In this document: one piece after another, positions 6,129-14,516 of the stretch
Layout of the letters: each line of letters opens with the position of its first letter
Numbering within the stretch: position 1 is the first letter of the stretch
Assembly (NCBI GenBank): GCA_902521805.1
Contig: CABYTL010000001.1
Location: 1 to 64,000 of the forward strand
Length of the DNA stretch: 64,000 nucleotides
Source of the DNA: an uncultured Pelagibacteraceae bacterium
GTDB taxonomy: Bacteria; Pseudomonadota; Alphaproteobacteria; Pelagibacterales; Pelagibacteraceae
Reading direction: 5' to 3'
Translations under genes and position numbers: made by a program
Notes under the pieces: model-generated
Told to the model about the DNA's origin: nothing
Databases searched by the model: none
Seen by the model: the letters and a program-made list of their open reading frames with translations, nothing else

Positions 6129-7025
6129 ATGAGACACCCACACCATTATAAAATTTCAATTGCTTTAGCTATATCAGCGGGAGCCTGGGGAATATATTGG
6201 TTGCCACAAAGAATTCTCGAAGATGGTGGTCTTACTGGAGGTTGGGGCACAATATCTCAAATGATAATTGGAACTTTATTATTATTACCTATTGCAGTTT
6301 GGAGATTAAGCAAAAGAAAAGGGACTGGGTTAGAACTTCCAGCTATGGGAATTTTAATTGGTGGAGGTTTTATATTATACGCATTAAGTTTTCTATTAAC
6401 GGATGTAGTAAGAGCTCTAATAATGTTTTATATGACACCCGTCTGGACAACTATCTTCGAAATAGTTTTTTTAAAGAAAAAACATGGTTGGCAACGAATT
6501 GTAAGCTTAAGTTTAGCACTCGGAGGTTTATGGGTAGTTTTTGGACAAGGTGGCAACATTCCTTTGCCAGTGAATGCTGGAGACTGGATTGCTCTTTTAG
6601 GTGGAGTTATGTTTGCCGGAGGAATGATAAGGCTCGAGGTTATTAAAACCGATGGAGTATTTCCAATCATTTTTGGTTTTTTCTTTTATGGAACATTATT
6701 TAATATTGCAGCTGGTCTATTACTCGTAGATTATCTTGGTCCTGTTCCAACTATTGATGCTTTTGTTTCAATGACTGCTTTCTTAATTCCTCTATCAATT
6801 TTTTATTTTATTCCAACTGGTATCGTAATTCTTTGGGCACCAACTCAAATAGGGGCGGGAATCTGTTCAATTCTATTTTTATCAGAAATAATAGTAGGCG
6901 CTGTAAGTTCGAGTATTTTAACAGACGAACCATTTGGCTGGCGTCAGATTGTCGGTTGTTCTTTAATAATTATAGGTGGGGTTGTTGCAGTAGTCTTATC
7001 GCCAAAAGAAGATGTTAGTAAGTAA
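6129..7025 (+). CDS. EamA/DMT-family transporter
   Basis: Polytopic membrane protein with DMT-like repeats, 298 aa. Confidence 0.75.
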   Translation: MRHPHHYKISIALAISAGAWGIYWLPQRILEDGGLTGGWGTISQMIIGTLLLLPIAVWRLSKRKGTGLELPAMGILIGGGFILYALSFLLTDVVRALIMFYMTPVWTTIFEIVFLKKKHGWQRIVSLSLALGGLWVVFGQGGNIPLPVNAGDWIALLGGVMFAGGMIRLEVIKTDGVFPIIFGFFFYGTLFNIAAGLLLVDYLGPVPTIDAFVSMTAFLIPLSIFYFIPTGIVILWAPTQIGAGICSILFLSEIIVGAVSSSILTDEPFGWRQIVGCSLIIIGGVVAVVLSPKEDVSK

Positions 7026-7034
7026 AAAATTAAA

Positions 7035-7628
7035 TTAATCTTTTGTTAATTTAGAAATATCTTCAAATTTATTTTTCCAAATTACAAAACTCAAAACTGG
7101 TTTTTCTTCTGTAGTAATTGCATGAGATTCAAAACTTTTGTGTAATCTGGTTTTAGTAGATGTCAACATTTCTGTATTTTGATTTTTACTTTCAAATTTT
7201 GCTTTCCCAGAAACAATGAAATATAACTCCTCTGCGTCATGGTTGTGCCAGGGATAATAAGCATTTTTACATAAGTAATTAACGTATAGAGCCATTTCAG
7301 AAGTTTTAAAATGACCAGATGGACCAATTAATTCAAAAAAACCATATTTATTTAAAAAATCTTTTCCTACTTCTTTTTCTTTATATCCATGTTCCCAATT
7401 AACATAAGCAGATAATTTACTTATAGAGTTGTGCAATTCTATTAGTTTGGTATCCAAATTTGAGTTCCATTTTAAAAGTTTGTCTGTTACAGGGATTTTG
7501 TTTTTATTCAAATTTTTAAGAGATAAATTTTTAGGAAATTTTACAAAATTGGAAAGAACACTTTTTTTATTCCATAATTTTTCGATTTCACTTTTAGCAT
7601 TATTAAAAATATTCTCTGTGTTACTCAT
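7035..7628 (-). CDS. cupin-domain protein, DddQ/DddL-like dimethylsulfoniopropionate (DMSP) lyase family
   Basis: C-terminal cupin with YPWHNHDAEELYFIVSG and a downstream ESHAITT. The H-x3-E-x-Y plus distal His layout resembles the metal site described for DddQ-type DMSP lyases. Confidence 0.65.
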   Translation of the reverse strand: MSNTENIFNNAKSEIEKLWNKKSVLSNFVKFPKNLSLKNLNKNKIPVTDKLLKWNSNLDTKLIELHNSISKLSAYVNWEHGYKEKEVGKDFLNKYGFFELIGPSGHFKTSEMALYVNYLCKNAYYPWHNHDAEELYFIVSGKAKFESKNQNTEMLTSTKTRLHKSFESHAITTEEKPVLSFVIWKNKFEDISKLTKD

Positions 7629-8549
7629 TTATAATTTGAGATTGGATAAAGACTTAATTAAATCTGGACCTATACCACAACATCCACCAATTATTTGGGA
7701 ACCATCTTCAACCCAAGATTTTGCTTGAATTAAATAATCTTCTGGCTTCATATTATCTTCATAAATCCAGTGAGGCTTTTCATAAAAACCTACATTAGGG
7801 TATGCTCCGATTATTCCATTAAAAATTTTTTTTGCAATTTTTACAGCTTTTCCTGTCACATCAATATTTGAATGAGCTATTAATATTGGGCCTTTGTGAA
7901 GTTGACTAAATTTGTTTAAAGATTTTTCAAAATTTTCATAAACTTCAGGAGGTGCATCTATTGAATCGTTATAACCCAACATTATCTCATTTGAATTATT
8001 ATCAATCACACAAGATATTGCCAGCCAAACTGGCACTTTTACTCTTGTGGAACATTCTATCATTGCTTGAACAATTTCCGCTTGAGAAGACATTGCCTCT
8101 AAGATAATTAAATCTACTCCTTCTTCAGTCAAAATTTTTAATTGTTCATTAAAATTTGGTATCATTGTTTTTATTCCAAGTTTATAAAAACTTCCTGAAG
8201 CAGATACGCTTCCAGCTATAGCAATATCTTTGTTTGAATTTTCAGCTGCTTTTTTTGCTATTAGAACACTTTTTTTATTGTATTCTCTAATAGAGTTTTC
8301 AAACCCATAATTTTTCATAGAAATAGGAGTTGATGCATAAGTATTAGTAGTTATGACGTCTGCCCCAGCCTCAATATAATCTTCGTGGACTTTTTTTACT
8401 ATTTCTGGAAATTTAATTGAGGATGTTCCACACCATAATTTTTTGTCCATTTGAGCTCCATTTTTTTCAAGCTCAGATCCCATAGCTCCATCTAAAATTA
8501 CTAATTTTCCATTATCTAATTTTTCTTTAACAATATTATATGACATCAA
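7629..8549 (-). CDS. homocysteine S-methyltransferase family protein (MmuM/BHMT-like)
   Basis: N-terminal DGAMGSELEKNG and Zn-binding C-terminal GGCCG (QIIGGCCGIGP). Confidence 0.85.
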   Translation of the reverse strand: MMSYNIVKEKLDNGKLVILDGAMGSELEKNGAQMDKKLWCGTSSIKFPEIVKKVHEDYIEAGADVITTNTYASTPISMKNYGFENSIREYNKKSVLIAKKAAENSNKDIAIAGSVSASGSFYKLGIKTMIPNFNEQLKILTEEGVDLIILEAMSSQAEIVQAMIECSTRVKVPVWLAISCVIDNNSNEIMLGYNDSIDAPPEVYENFEKSLNKFSQLHKGPILIAHSNIDVTGKAVKIAKKIFNGIIGAYPNVGFYEKPHWIYEDNMKPEDYLIQAKSWVEDGSQIIGGCCGIGPDLIKSLSNLKL

Positions 8550-8932
8550 GTTTTACTGTTTGTGAAAGCACAAATTTTATTTCCATCTATATCTCTTATA
8601 TAAGAATAATATACTCCAGAGCCTTCTGGTCTTTCACCACCAGTTCCTTCACTTTTTCCACCAGCTTTTATTCCAACTTCATGAAATTTATCAACTACTG
8701 ATCTTGAAGTTGTAATAAAAGATACTTGTGATCCATTACCTATGGTTGCTTCTTTTTTATTAACTGGCAAAGTTACATAAAATTCTATTGCGCCTGAACC
8801 TTCCTTGGATGCATATCCTGCACAAACTTCATCCTTATCAACTCTGGTTAAACCTAAAACTTCCAGTAACTCATCATAAAATTTAATTGCATTATCAAGT
8901 TCATTAGTCCCGACCATTACATAACCAATCAT
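8546..8932 (-). CDS. VOC (glyoxalase/bleomycin-resistance) family protein
   Basis: 128 aa: VGTNELDNAIKFYDELLEVLG ... SYIRDIDGNKICAF. Confidence 0.8.
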   Translation of the reverse strand: MIGYVMVGTNELDNAIKFYDELLEVLGLTRVDKDEVCAGYASKEGSGAIEFYVTLPVNKKEATIGNGSQVSFITTSRSVVDKFHEVGIKAGGKSEGTGGERPEGSGVYYSYIRDIDGNKICAFTNSKT

Positions 8933-8950: not shown

Positions 8951-10381
8951 TTATTTCCATTCAGTAATTGTTTTGACTTCTAAATATTCATGCAAACCCC
9001 AATTACCTCCTTCACGACCATTACCGGATTGTCTATATCCACCAAAAGGTGTTCCCGAGTCAGCTGATTTATGATTTACATAAACTATACCAGATCTTAA
9101 TTTTTTTGAGACCCTCTTAGCTTTCTCACTATCCTCTGTTTGTAGATAATTACCAAGACCATATTCTGTATCATTTGTAATTTTAATCGCTTCATCTTCA
9201 TTCTCAAAAGGTATAATTGAAAGCACAGGGCCAAATATTTCTTCTTTTGCAATTCTCATTGAATTTTTAACATTAGTAAAAACTGTGGGTTTTATAAAAT
9301 ATCCTTTTTTGAAATCCTTAGGTTTATCAGGACCACCTGCCACTAAAGTAGCTCCCTCATCTATACCGCTTTGGATTAAACTTTGAATTTTATCAAATTG
9401 AACTTTTGAAATGACAGGACCAATATGATCACCAGATTTACTTGCTAAATCTACTTTTATTTTGTTTGCTTCATCTGCAGCTTCCTTTATGGCTCTATCA
9501 TAAATGGATTTTTCAACTAACATTCTAGTAGGTGCATCACATGATTGACCTGAGTTACTCATAATATTCCTAATTCCATCTCTAACAGCGTCAGGATAAG
9601 AGTCTGCAAAAACAATATTTCCTCCCTTGCCCCCAAGTTCTAAACAAACTCTCTTAATGGTATCAGCAGCATTTTTTGTAATTAGCTTTCCTGCTCTTGT
9701 TGAACCAGTAAAAGAGACCATATCAATATCAGGATGTTTTGAAAGATCTGTTCCAACTCCTAAGCCATCTCCATTTATTAAATTGAAAACTCCCTTTGGA
9801 AAGCCTGTTTCATGTATCATTTCTGCAAACAACATTCCCGAAAGCGGGGCAATTTCTGATGGTTTTAAGATCATTGTACAACCAGTAGCAAGTGCAGGTA
9901 TGACTTTTAAAGCAATCTGATTTATAGGCCAATTCCAAGGTGTTATTAATCCGCAAACACCTATCGGTTCGTATATAATATGATTTACAGATTCTTTACC
10001 AAAACCAGGTTCAAAATTAAATTCTTTTAGTCTTTTTATAAAATCCTCTATATGAGATGCACCTGAAGAAGTTTGGTTTGCTGAACACCAATCTTTTGGA
10101 CAACCTAATTCTGTTGATATAGCATTTGTCATATCATCCCATTTTGAATTATAAATTTGTAATAATTTTTCTAATAATCTTATCCTTTCCTCTTTTGATG
10201 TTTCTTTCCAAGTATCAAAAGCTTTTTTAGCATATTTAACTGCTAAATTAGTATCTGCAGAGCTGCCTAGTGAAATTATTGCACATACTTCCTCAGTAGA
10301 GGGGTTTATAACCTCATAATTATTTTGATTAATAGAATCTACCCATTCACCATTGATATAAAATTTTTTTTTATCTAACAT
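8951..10381 (-). CDS. NAD(P)-dependent aldehyde dehydrogenase
   Basis: VCLELGGKGGNIVF Glu motif, NSGQSCDAPTRMLV Cys motif and ITPWNWPINQIALKVIPALATGCTMILKPSE. Confidence 0.93.
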   Translation of the reverse strand: MLDKKKFYINGEWVDSINQNNYEVINPSTEEVCAIISLGSSADTNLAVKYAKKAFDTWKETSKEERIRLLEKLLQIYNSKWDDMTNAISTELGCPKDWCSANQTSSGASHIEDFIKRLKEFNFEPGFGKESVNHIIYEPIGVCGLITPWNWPINQIALKVIPALATGCTMILKPSEIAPLSGMLFAEMIHETGFPKGVFNLINGDGLGVGTDLSKHPDIDMVSFTGSTRAGKLITKNAADTIKRVCLELGGKGGNIVFADSYPDAVRDGIRNIMSNSGQSCDAPTRMLVEKSIYDRAIKEAADEANKIKVDLASKSGDHIGPVISKVQFDKIQSLIQSGIDEGATLVAGGPDKPKDFKKGYFIKPTVFTNVKNSMRIAKEEIFGPVLSIIPFENEDEAIKITNDTEYGLGNYLQTEDSEKAKRVSKKLRSGIVYVNHKSADSGTPFGGYRQSGNGREGGNWGLHEYLEVKTITEWK

Positions 10382-10389
10382 AAGTATTT

Positions 10390-11532
10390 TTAATTAAATT
10401 CTTTTATTATCTGCTCTCTATGTTCATCAAGATCTGGAATATCTCCTCTAGATTTTTCATCTTTATAAGACGACATCTTAATTGGGTTTCCAGCTAATTT
10501 AAAATCACCTATTTTCTTATGGTAAGCTTTTACAATCATATTTCTAGATTCAATTTGAGGATTTTCAACCGCCTCTTTAATATTAAATATTGGACCACAT
10601 GGAATTTTTTCTTTTTCCATTATTTTAACCCATTCATTAGTTTCTTTAGTTTTTAACTTATCCTCAAGAATTTTCTTTAGCTCGTCCATATTACTAGCTC
10701 TAGATGAATTATCAGAAAATTTTGATTCACTATTAATTTCTTTTATATTTAAAATATTACAAAGTTTCTCGAATAATTTATCGTTTCCTGCAGCAATTAT
10801 GATGTGACTATCTTTAGTTTTAAAAGCTTCGAAAGGAGCAATAGATGGATGACGAGACCCCATAGGTTTAGGAATTTCATTTTTTGCTAAATATCTTGCA
10901 ATTGCATTTTCTAGAATTGCTATCTGACAATCAAGCATGGAAACATCAATATACATTCCTTTCCCAGTTTTTTTTCTATCATAAAGAGCTGCATTAATTC
11001 CAATAGCAGTAAACAATCCTGCAGTAATGTCCCCAATAGAAGTACCAACTCTTGTAGGTTCTGAGTTAGGTTGACCAGTAACGCTCATCAAACCACCCAT
11101 ACCTTGTACTACCATATCATACGCTGGTAATTCTTTTAAGGGACCTGTTTGTCCAAATCCAGAAGCTGAAGCATAAATTAATTTAGGAAATTTTTTATTT
11201 ACTTCTTTCCAACCATAACCCCATTTTTCTAAAGTGCCTGGTTTGAAATTTTCAACTAAAATATCTGCCTTAGCTAAAATTTTGTCAAAAATTTTTTTAT
11301 CATCACTGTCTTTTAAATTAAGGGCAATACTTTCTTTTCCTCTGTTTAAAGACATAAAATATGCTGAGTAATCTTCAACAAATGGCCCAAACTTTCTGGA
11401 GTCATCTCCGATTTCAGGAGCTTCTACTTTTATTACTCTTGCACCTAGATCAGAAAGTATCATGGTACAGTAAGGACCTACTAATACTCTAGTTAAATCA
11501 ACAACTAGTAAATTTTTTAAAGGTCCATCCAT
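10390..11532 (-). CDS. class III CoA-transferase (CaiB/BaiF family)
   Basis: VDLTRVLVGPYCTMILSDLGARVIKVE, NLKPGT-like ENFKPGTLEKWGYG, and candidate catalytic Asp in PAYDMVVQGMGGLMSVTG. Confidence 0.92.
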   Translation of the reverse strand: MDGPLKNLLVVDLTRVLVGPYCTMILSDLGARVIKVEAPEIGDDSRKFGPFVEDYSAYFMSLNRGKESIALNLKDSDDKKIFDKILAKADILVENFKPGTLEKWGYGWKEVNKKFPKLIYASASGFGQTGPLKELPAYDMVVQGMGGLMSVTGQPNSEPTRVGTSIGDITAGLFTAIGINAALYDRKKTGKGMYIDVSMLDCQIAILENAIARYLAKNEIPKPMGSRHPSIAPFEAFKTKDSHIIIAAGNDKLFEKLCNILNIKEINSESKFSDNSSRASNMDELKKILEDKLKTKETNEWVKIMEKEKIPCGPIFNIKEAVENPQIESRNMIVKAYHKKIGDFKLAGNPIKMSSYKDEKSRGDIPDLDEHREQIIKEFN

Positions 11533-11627: not shown

Positions 11628-12638
11628 ATGTTAAAAAAAATATCTTTATATTTAGCTTCATTAGTTTTTGTTTTCACTACTGTTGGTTCTGCTTTTGCTG
11701 TTACATTAAAAGCAAGTCACCAATGGCCGGGAACTCCAAGAGCTGATGGATCATTCGACCCACGTCACGAAATGGTTCAAATAATCGCTGACGAAGTAAA
11801 AAAAGCAAATGTTGGAGTGGATATAAGAATTTATCCTGCCAAATCTTTGTATAAACCTAAAGAACAGTGGAAACCTATGACAACAGGTCAATTAGATATT
11901 TCTGCTTTTCCATTAGCATATGCGTCTAAATTCCATCCAGAGTTCGATGCAACCTTAATGCCAGGAACAGTAAAAAATCATGACCATGCATTAAGATTTA
12001 ATAAAGGTCCAATGATGACTGAAATTAAAAAAATCATTAATGATGCTGGTGTTGTAGTTTTATCTGATGCTTGGTTAGGTGGTGGTTTTGCTTCAAAAAC
12101 AAAATGTATAAAAAATCCTAGTGATGCAAAAGGTCAAGTTATGAGAGCTGCAGGAAAAGCATTTAATCAAATGTTAGAAGCAGCAGGTGCCGGTATACAA
12201 AGTATGCCATCATCTGAAATCTATACAGGTCTACAAACTGGTGTATTAACAGGTGCTAACACTAGTTCAGGAAGTTTTGTAAGTTACAAAATTTATGAAC
12301 AAGTTTCATGTGCAACCCCTCCAGGAAAATTTGGTCTATGGTTTATGTATGAACCAATTTTGATGTCAAAAAAGTCTTTCGATGCTCTAAATTCTAAGCA
12401 ACAAAAAGCTTTAATGAAAGCTGGTAAAGTAGCTGAGAAATACATGACAGCTCAAGTAGAAAACTTAGATAAAAAGTTTGAAGATGCCTACAAGGCTGCT
12501 GGTGTAAAATTAGTATACATGGATGCAAAAGATCATGCTGCATGGGTAGAGATTGCGAAAAAATCTTCTCACAAGGCATTTGCTGATAAAGTTCAAGGTG
12601 GCGATAAGCTGATGGAAATGGCTTTAGCAGTTAAATAA
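11628..12638 (+). CDS. dctP: TRAP transporter substrate-binding protein DctP family
   Basis: N-terminal signal peptide, DctP-like fold sequence (GLQTGVLTGANTSSGSF), followed by the DctQ and DctM genes. Confidence 0.88.
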   Translation: MLKKISLYLASLVFVFTTVGSAFAVTLKASHQWPGTPRADGSFDPRHEMVQIIADEVKKANVGVDIRIYPAKSLYKPKEQWKPMTTGQLDISAFPLAYASKFHPEFDATLMPGTVKNHDHALRFNKGPMMTEIKKIINDAGVVVLSDAWLGGGFASKTKCIKNPSDAKGQVMRAAGKAFNQMLEAAGAGIQSMPSSEIYTGLQTGVLTGANTSSGSFVSYKIYEQVSCATPPGKFGLWFMYEPILMSKKSFDALNSKQQKALMKAGKVAEKYMTAQVENLDKKFEDAYKAAGVKLVYMDAKDHAAWVEIAKKSSHKAFADKVQGGDKLMEMALAVK

Positions 12639-12652
12639 AATAATATATAAAG

Positions 12653-12689
12653 AACCCCTATTTATTCTTATTAAATAGGGGTTTTTTTT
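12653..12689 (+). terminator. intrinsic terminator-like hairpin between dctP and dctQ
   Basis: AACCCCTATTTA-ttcttat-TAAATAGGGGTT followed by a T tract, immediately before the dctQ ATG at 12690. Confidence 0.85.
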
Positions 12690-13184
12690 ATGAAAAAAAA
12701 ATATCTTCAATTTTGTGATCTAATAGCTAAAGCTTGTGGTGCTTTCGCTGTATTAGCATTGCTTTTATCAATCTTAGTAATCGTTGAGCTTGTTTTTGAA
12801 AGATATTTTTTTCAAAGAGCAATTACTTGGCAAACAGAACTCGTAACTATGTTGTTAGTTGCTTCAACTTTTATAGGGAGCGTATACGTTCTAAGTGAAA
12901 AAGCTCATGTAAGCATGGAATGGATTTATGATTTTTTATCAAAAAAAAATATAATTATATTAAAAATTTTTACATCCTCATTAAGTTTAGTGTTTTTCTT
13001 AATTTTATTTTACTTTGGATTTTTAATGGTGGAGGAAGCATTTACCAAAAATTATTCAACAGGAACTGTCTGGGATCCACCACTATGGATACCATATTCA
13101 TCAATGATGATAGGGGCTTTATTAATGATATTACAGTACATTGCAGAAATTATAAAACTAACTGATGAAAAGGATTTTAGATAA
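12690..13184 (+). CDS. dctQ: TRAP transporter small permease DctQ
   Basis: 4-TM protein of 164 aa between dctP and dctM. Confidence 0.85.
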   Translation: MKKKYLQFCDLIAKACGAFAVLALLLSILVIVELVFERYFFQRAITWQTELVTMLLVASTFIGSVYVLSEKAHVSMEWIYDFLSKKNIIILKIFTSSLSLVFFLILFYFGFLMVEEAFTKNYSTGTVWDPPLWIPYSSMMIGALLMILQYIAEIIKLTDEKDFR

Positions 13185-14516
13185 ATGGATCCATTAATTA
13201 TAGCTATAATCGTTGCAGTTTTTACATTAATAGTACTTTTTTCTGGAATTCCAATTGCTTTTGGTTTGAGTTTTGTCTCTATAGCTCTATTGGTTACATT
13301 TGAAGGTTTTCAAATGCTAGATGTCTTTGCCGAAACATTTTTTGCAGGACTAAACTCTTTTGTTCTGCTCTCAATACCGATGTTTATTTTGATGGGAATG
13401 GCTGTTGCCAATTCTCCTGCGGGAAAAGATTTATATACAGGATTAGATAGATGGCTTTGGAGAGTTCCCGGGGGACTGGTGATTTCTAATATAGGAGCTT
13501 GTTCAATTTTTGCCGCATTAAGTGGATCTAGTCCCGCAACTTGTGCTGCGATTGGAACAATGGGAATACCTGAAATGAGAAAAAGAGGTTACTCCGACCA
13601 AATCGCAACAGGAACCATTGCGGCTGGTGGAACTTTAGGAGTTTTAATTCCCCCCAGTATTGTTTTAATAGTTTACGGAATCGCAACAGGTACATCAATT
13701 GGTAGATTATTTTTATGTGGGCTTGTACCAGGTTTTATGTTGGCAGGTATGTTTGCGATATGGGCTTTAATACATAGTTATTTTATTGATAAAGAAGCTG
13801 CAAAAGCTTTAAGAAATAGAGTAAGACCAACTCTAAAAGAAAAACTTGAGGTATTACCAAGAATTCTTCCTTTCCTAGCTATTATAGCAGGTGTTTTATA
13901 TGTTCTTTATGGAGGAGTTGCGACACCATCCGAGGCATCTGGTGTGGGGGCATTCTTAGTTTTTGTATTAATTGCTGTTGTGTATAAAATTTATCAGCCA
14001 AAAAAAATTTGGAACATTGTTAAAGTTTCAATGAAAGAAAGTGTAATGATAATGTTCATTATTGCTGCCTCATATCTTTTTGCATTTACTCTTTCACAAC
14101 TTTATGTAACTCAGTCATTAGCACAGAGCATGGTCGAATTAAGCTCTAACAAATGGGTTGTGTTCATTCTAATAAACATATTTCTTTTAATAGCTGGTTT
14201 CTTTTTACCGCCAGTTGCAGTTATCGTAATGACTTCAGCTATATTATTGCCAGTTATTACTTCTTTAGGGTTTGACCCCTACTGGTTTGCAATAGTTTTT
14301 ACAATTAATATGGAGATTGGCTTAATTACTCCACCAGTTGGATTAAATCTTTATATTATTAAAGGAATTACCCCAGACGTTAGTTTGTCAGAAATTTTAA
14401 AAGGATCTATACCGTTTATGATTATTATGGCTTTAGCTATAGTAATTTTATGTATTTTTCCTGAGATTGTTACATGGTTACCTGATAAAATAATGGGTAA
14501 AGACCTTGGATTCTAA
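13185..14516 (+). CDS. dctM: TRAP transporter large permease DctM
   Basis: GIPIAFGLSFVSIALL, GTLGVLIPPSIVLIVYG, EIGLITPPVGLNLYIIKG motifs. Confidence 0.93.
   Translation: MDPLIIAIIVAVFTLIVLFSGIPIAFGLSFVSIALLVTFEGFQMLDVFAETFFAGLNSFVLLSIPMFILMGMAVANSPAGKDLYTGLDRWLWRVPGGLVISNIGACSIFAALSGSSPATCAAIGTMGIPEMRKRGYSDQIATGTIAAGGTLGVLIPPSIVLIVYGIATGTSIGRLFLCGLVPGFMLAGMFAIWALIHSYFIDKEAAKALRNRVRPTLKEKLEVLPRILPFLAIIAGVLYVLYGGVATPSEASGVGAFLVFVLIAVVYKIYQPKKIWNIVKVSMKESVMIMFIIAASYLFAFTLSQLYVTQSLAQSMVELSSNKWVVFILINIFLLIAGFFLPPVAVIVMTSAILLPVITSLGFDPYWFAIVFTINMEIGLITPPVGLNLYIIKGITPDVSLSEILKGSIPFMIIMALAIVILCIFPEIVTWLPDKIMGKDLGF

Follow-up and report, generated by a model that had tools for sequence, protein, structure and literature searches.

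The closest described relatives of the protein considered here are the DddQ enzymes of R. lacuscaerulensis (4la2, 5jso-5jsr) and Roseovarius nubinhibens (4b29); at the date of one report dddQ was known from roseobacters only (PMC3338564). Six active-site residues of the R. lacuscaerulensis enzyme, Tyr120, His123, His125, Glu129, Tyr131 and His163, are essential for catalysis (PMC4437653). DMSOP is a substrate of all nine known Ddd enzymes, among them DddQ, and DddK of Candidatus Pelagibacter is a SAR11 cupin lyase that acts on DMSP and DMSOP (PMC10686828). A preliminary description of this DNA held that SAR11 is known for a different, shorter cupin lyase, DddK. The premise that SAR11 has DddK alone is outdated, as polar metagenomes have yielded DddQ assigned to Pelagibacterales (PMC8520302), and a SAR11 DddQ as such is therefore not new. 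What appears to be new is the context: dddQ ends a conserved operon, directly after a homocysteine S-methyltransferase gene, and in related genomes DddQ and an MsrA-family protein exchange at that place.

The window, by which we mean the whole 64,000-nucleotide stretch that was analysed, opens contig C1 of a 1.02-Mb assembly of 30 contigs that is 83% complete. The named relatives of this DNA are Pelagibacteraceae, which places it in SAR11. The features that concern us are as follows.

6129..7025, plus strand: EamA-family transporter at the flank of the island, convergent with dddQ.
7035..7628, minus strand: dddQ, encoding a 197-aa cupin, predicted DMSP/DMSOP lyase (PF16867, PDB DddQ matches, tree, AlphaFold/Foldseek with TM 0.90-0.91 to 5jsp and 4la2).
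Within dddQ: metal and catalytic residues predicted by homology, Y125, H128, H130, E134, Y136 and H169.
7629..8549, minus strand: homocysteine S-methyltransferase, 306 aa, PF02574, with Cys180 and Cys290-291; its stop codon abuts the dddQ ATG.
8546..8932, minus strand: glyoxalase/VOC-family protein, 128 aa; 4-base overlap with the methyltransferase gene.
8951..10381, minus strand: aldehyde dehydrogenase, 476 aa.
10390..11532, minus strand: class III CoA-transferase, 380 aa; nearest solved protein E. coli YfdE; common in SAR11, including where dddQ is absent.
11628..14516, plus strand: TRAP transporter dctPQM, divergent; a SAR11 backbone flank, not specific to dddQ.

The 197-aa reading frame is genuine and lies on the minus strand, which the preliminary description had left unstated; the plus strand of the same interval is full of stops. 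Its sole Pfam match is DMSP_lyase (PF16867), at 77.7 bits (cut-off 27; E 1.1e-21), the HMM search proposed beforehand thus coming out in favor of the lyase family; NCBIfam returned no match to the protein. When the PDB was searched by sequence, the only strong matches were solved DddQs (4b29, 5jso, 4la2, 4la3 and 5cu1, E about 3e-25 to 6e-33), the first match below them standing at E 0.5, and a profile built from six SAR11 sequences recovered the same five entries and nothing further at E 0.01. With these E values and the dN/dS given below, the frame is far from chance. Identity to the assayed roseobacter DddQs is about 36-38% across about 160 residues for the closest SAR11 copies.

The residues agree as well. 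Both the motif YPWHNHDAEELYFIVSG and the later ESHAITT occur as they had been reported, laid out as Y125-P-W-H128-N-H130-D-A-E-E134-L-Y136 with a further histidine, H169, exactly 39 residues past the second histidine of HNH. All six residues essential in R. lacuscaerulensis DddQ have their counterparts here, invariant across a 19-protein alignment. Trp122 and Arg155 are also present; the two nearest solved DddQs have them too, but the more distantly related PF16867 members sampled in the class do not. An AlphaFold2 model made from the 19-protein alignment (mean pLDDT 92.9, pTM 0.90) bears out the architecture that had been proposed, a helical N-terminal region (helices within residues 3-94) followed by a cupin barrel from residue 95 onward. 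The best six Foldseek matches to this model in the PDB are all DddQ, 5jsp, 4la2, 4b29 and 5cu1 among them (TM 0.90-0.93, rmsd 1.3-1.5 A), whereas the seventh is a different cupin at a TM of only 0.42. Solved DddY resembles the model only remotely in fold (TMq 0.55, TMt 0.30).

Two other cupin lyases deserve mention. DddK is a short, single-domain SAR11 cupin; we reject it as an identity for this protein, which has an N-terminal helical domain and whose strong PDB sequence matches are to DddQ only. DddK is absent both from those sequence matches and from the top 50 fold matches. Amylibacter DddU is reported to be under 15% identical to DddQ, and the 36-38% identity to DddQ argues against a DddU assignment.

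In a 52-sequence tree, into which the solved DddQs entered as aligned segments rather than full chains and in which sampling outside the family was limited, 18 SAR11 proteins form one group (support 100/99). This group is nested within the clade that holds all three solved DddQs (4b29, 5jso and 5cu1; 100/98), with 4b29 and 5jso nearer to it than 5cu1. With the SAR11 group bracketed by assayed lyases, the same activity would be the parsimonious expectation for its members. The group itself splits into an operon type, comprising 14 proteins (84/75), and a type sited elsewhere in the genome, comprising four (99/94; L012 in genome G078, and L032-L034). The latter is a sister group inside the SAR11 DddQ clade and has the same catalytic residues, but it is only 44-47% identical to the operon type, occupies other genome sites and is not accompanied by the methyltransferase operon. 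Homologues of dddQ occur in six of the 247 family genomes; five are of the operon type and the sixth is of the other.

The SAR11 protein thus shares with the roseobacter DddQs the family, the two-part fold, every residue of the metal site and of catalysis, and also Trp122 and Arg155; it differs from them in forming a separate branch and in the placement of its gene after a homocysteine S-methyltransferase gene. The suggestion that its H-x3-E-x-Y...H layout marks a DddQ has passed all available tests of sequence, structure and phylogeny. Better matches to non-lyase cupins and a different set of metal ligands, either of which was to have counted against it, were looked for, and neither occurred. 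As judged by homology, the product is DddQ proper, not merely DddQ-like. We accordingly favor, with a probability of roughly 0.83, a metal-dependent cupin lyase that would convert DMSP and/or DMSOP to acrylate and DMS or DMSO. By analogy with the R. lacuscaerulensis enzyme, the carboxylate of the substrate would be bound by a metal that H130, E134 and H169 hold in place and at which Y136 also lies; Y136, perhaps with help from Y125, would act as the tyrosine base that removes the alpha proton of DMSP; and cleavage of the C-S bond would then release acrylate together with DMS, or DMSO if the substrate is DMSOP.

The earlier reading of the gene passed over its operon, a run of five minus-strand genes that ends with dddQ. 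The order CoA-transferase, aldehyde dehydrogenase, glyoxalase-like protein, homocysteine S-methyltransferase, DddQ is found in 14 of 14 operon-type loci, these being the locus in the window plus 13 named records from SAR11 (L035 repeats the record L024). In all 13 cases compared, the methyltransferase stop either directly adjoins the dddQ start or overlaps it by 1-8 bases, and this suggests that the two genes may be translationally coupled. Because the gene that precedes dddQ encodes a homocysteine S-methyltransferase, the cleavage reaction would probably be co-expressed, from a presumptive common transcript, with one-carbon and sulfur salvage of methylated sulfur compounds. The operon contains no gene for a DMSP transporter or for acrylate use, which counts against the lyase reading, as do the identity of only 36-38% to assayed enzymes and the cupins of the superfamily, mentioned below, that are reportedly without known lyase function. 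Only a minority of DMSP lyase genes cluster with transporters (PMC10030565). The aldehyde dehydrogenase and the CoA-transferase were considered as acrylate genes specific to dddQ and rejected: the CoA-transferase gene is present in 81 of the 247 family genomes, most of which have no dddQ; it and the TRAP genes therefore belong to the SAR11 backbone and offer no argument for acrylate metabolism. A phage or mobile origin of dddQ was likewise set aside, there being no homologue among the viral contigs or phage records searched; relatives on plasmids are remote, mostly rhizobial, and 22-28% identical.

The flanks vary among relatives. Many carry, after dddQ or msrA, a gene for a 387-aa beta-lactamase-fold hydrolase (PF00144; L009:8520-9683, L011:8576-9739 and equivalents), which is missing from the window. 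In several (L082:11095-13011; L080, L083-L085 and L087) the methyltransferase island adjoins EutA- and DoeA-like genes of ectoine catabolism and a further ABC system, and some have a second PF02574 methyltransferase, divergent from the first, on the far side of this island (L077:3763-4755, L082:4669-5658).

The methyltransferase gene occurs in 29 of the 247 family genomes, nearly always in a block with the aldehyde dehydrogenase and glyoxalase genes (L040 is without the dehydrogenase there). What follows it differs: among these 29 genomes, which are related and not independent of one another, the position after it is occupied by dddQ in 5, by an MsrA-family gene in 20 and by neither in 4, and none has both. 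The MsrA-family gene that fills this slot encodes 150 aa (L042-L066; L078, L080 and L082). In a tree of the methyltransferase, counting well-supported branches alone, the dddQ label changes at least three times, and the pairing of dddQ with the methyltransferase has therefore been made, or broken, more than once. Such a history fits a useful partnership and fits equally well recombination at a variable locus.

The exchange bears on the question of substrate. DMSOP rather than DMSP could be the main substrate, with DMSO and acrylate as the chief products, and we think this a possibility of real but lesser weight, with the odds somewhat against it. DddQ, DddK and DddU are more efficient with DMSOP than with DMSP, although the preference varies among the DddQs that have been tested (PMC10686828). 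MsrA belongs to a family of methyl-sulfoxide reductases, and its presence in the slot that dddQ otherwise fills would fit a theme of oxidized sulfur; MsrA may, however, simply repair methionine.

The methyltransferase (METHYLTRANSFERASE) is a PF02574 protein whose Cys180 and Cys290-291 form what we take to be the usual zinc triad pattern of that family. It thus shares family membership and the Cys / Cys-Cys pattern with MmuM, BHMT and MetH, but it scores below the cut-off of every NCBIfam equivalog. No other PF02574 protein was found in the genome from which the window derives, and two further dddQ carriers (G181 and G106, 95-97% complete) likewise have a single one; other carriers have more. 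The clade to which these genomes belong has been reported to be without MetE and MetH. This protein may therefore plausibly serve to make methionine, with a methylated sulfur compound as the donor, and the gene arrangement is suggestive, though only suggestive, of a link with DddQ. One could go further and imagine the two as a functional module, in which the methyltransferase would draw on DMSP or a related sulfonium for the methyl group of methionine while DddQ would cleave the same pool for carbon, MsrA replacing DddQ in sister genomes; we regard this as unlikely. We found no paper that brings together SAR11, dddQ and homocysteine S-methyltransferase, in a search that was thin on subscription journals, and this offers a slight hint that the operon is so far undescribed.

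The linkage to the methyltransferase, tight and repeatedly conserved, also lends something to the proposal that the lyase acts on another sulfonium or betaine of the operon, for example the substrate of the methyltransferase, and that DMSP cleavage is a side activity. Some cupins of the DMSP lyase superfamily are reportedly without known lyase function (Lei et al. 2018), so that lyase-like groups of this kind would exist. Published lyases, moreover, have millimolar Km values (PMC5395565). We nevertheless hold the proposal to be improbable: the active-site residues are exactly those of DddQ, and the protein nests within the DddQ clade, not with the groups of unknown function. We found no evidence for the divergent, new-substrate paralogue that the preliminary description had raised as one outcome of interest. 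That the gene is a non-catalytic or decaying paralogue is scarcely credible, since, even though it changes fastest among six genes compared in the closest relatives (dN 0.045-0.056), its dN/dS of 0.11-0.26 against seven relatives places it under purifying selection, its catalytic residues are invariant in the 19 aligned sequences and it has been kept in every operon-type locus.

Also in favor of a DMSP lyase, the genome that contains the window encodes a 369-aa DmdA that scores 568 bits, across all 369 residues, against 3tfh, which we take to be Pelagibacter DmdA; a match of this strength and length rules out misassignment, and the presence of DmdA means that the organism handles DMSP. In the 83%-complete genome we did not find DddK (there are two PF07883 cupins, one of 143 aa without a DddK match and one within a 403-aa frame), nor did we see a strong match to AcuI. 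At the start of the window, in positions 1-2532, are an ABC permease gene cut by the contig start and the gene for its ATPase. We do not regard the adjoining ABC system as a DMSP transporter: the contig stops short of its binding protein, but the one in a relative's system is nearer to 4xz6 (E 3e-21), presumably the TMAO-binding TmoX, than to 7yle (E 1e-7), presumably DmpX.

The operon-borne type of DddQ belongs to a minority of Pelagibacter, 5 of the 247 family genomes sampled. Within that minority the fixed pairing of dddQ with the methyltransferase gene may connect DMSP cleavage with the supply of methionine, a possible link that lends itself to direct testing; were the two proteins indeed to form a module, these cells would possess a route to methionine independent of MetE, MetH and classical BHMT. 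SAR11 bacteria, which rank among the ocean's most numerous cells, rely on DMSP and other reduced sulfur, and the complement of lyases they carry therefore bears on the amount of DMS and DMSO that they release.
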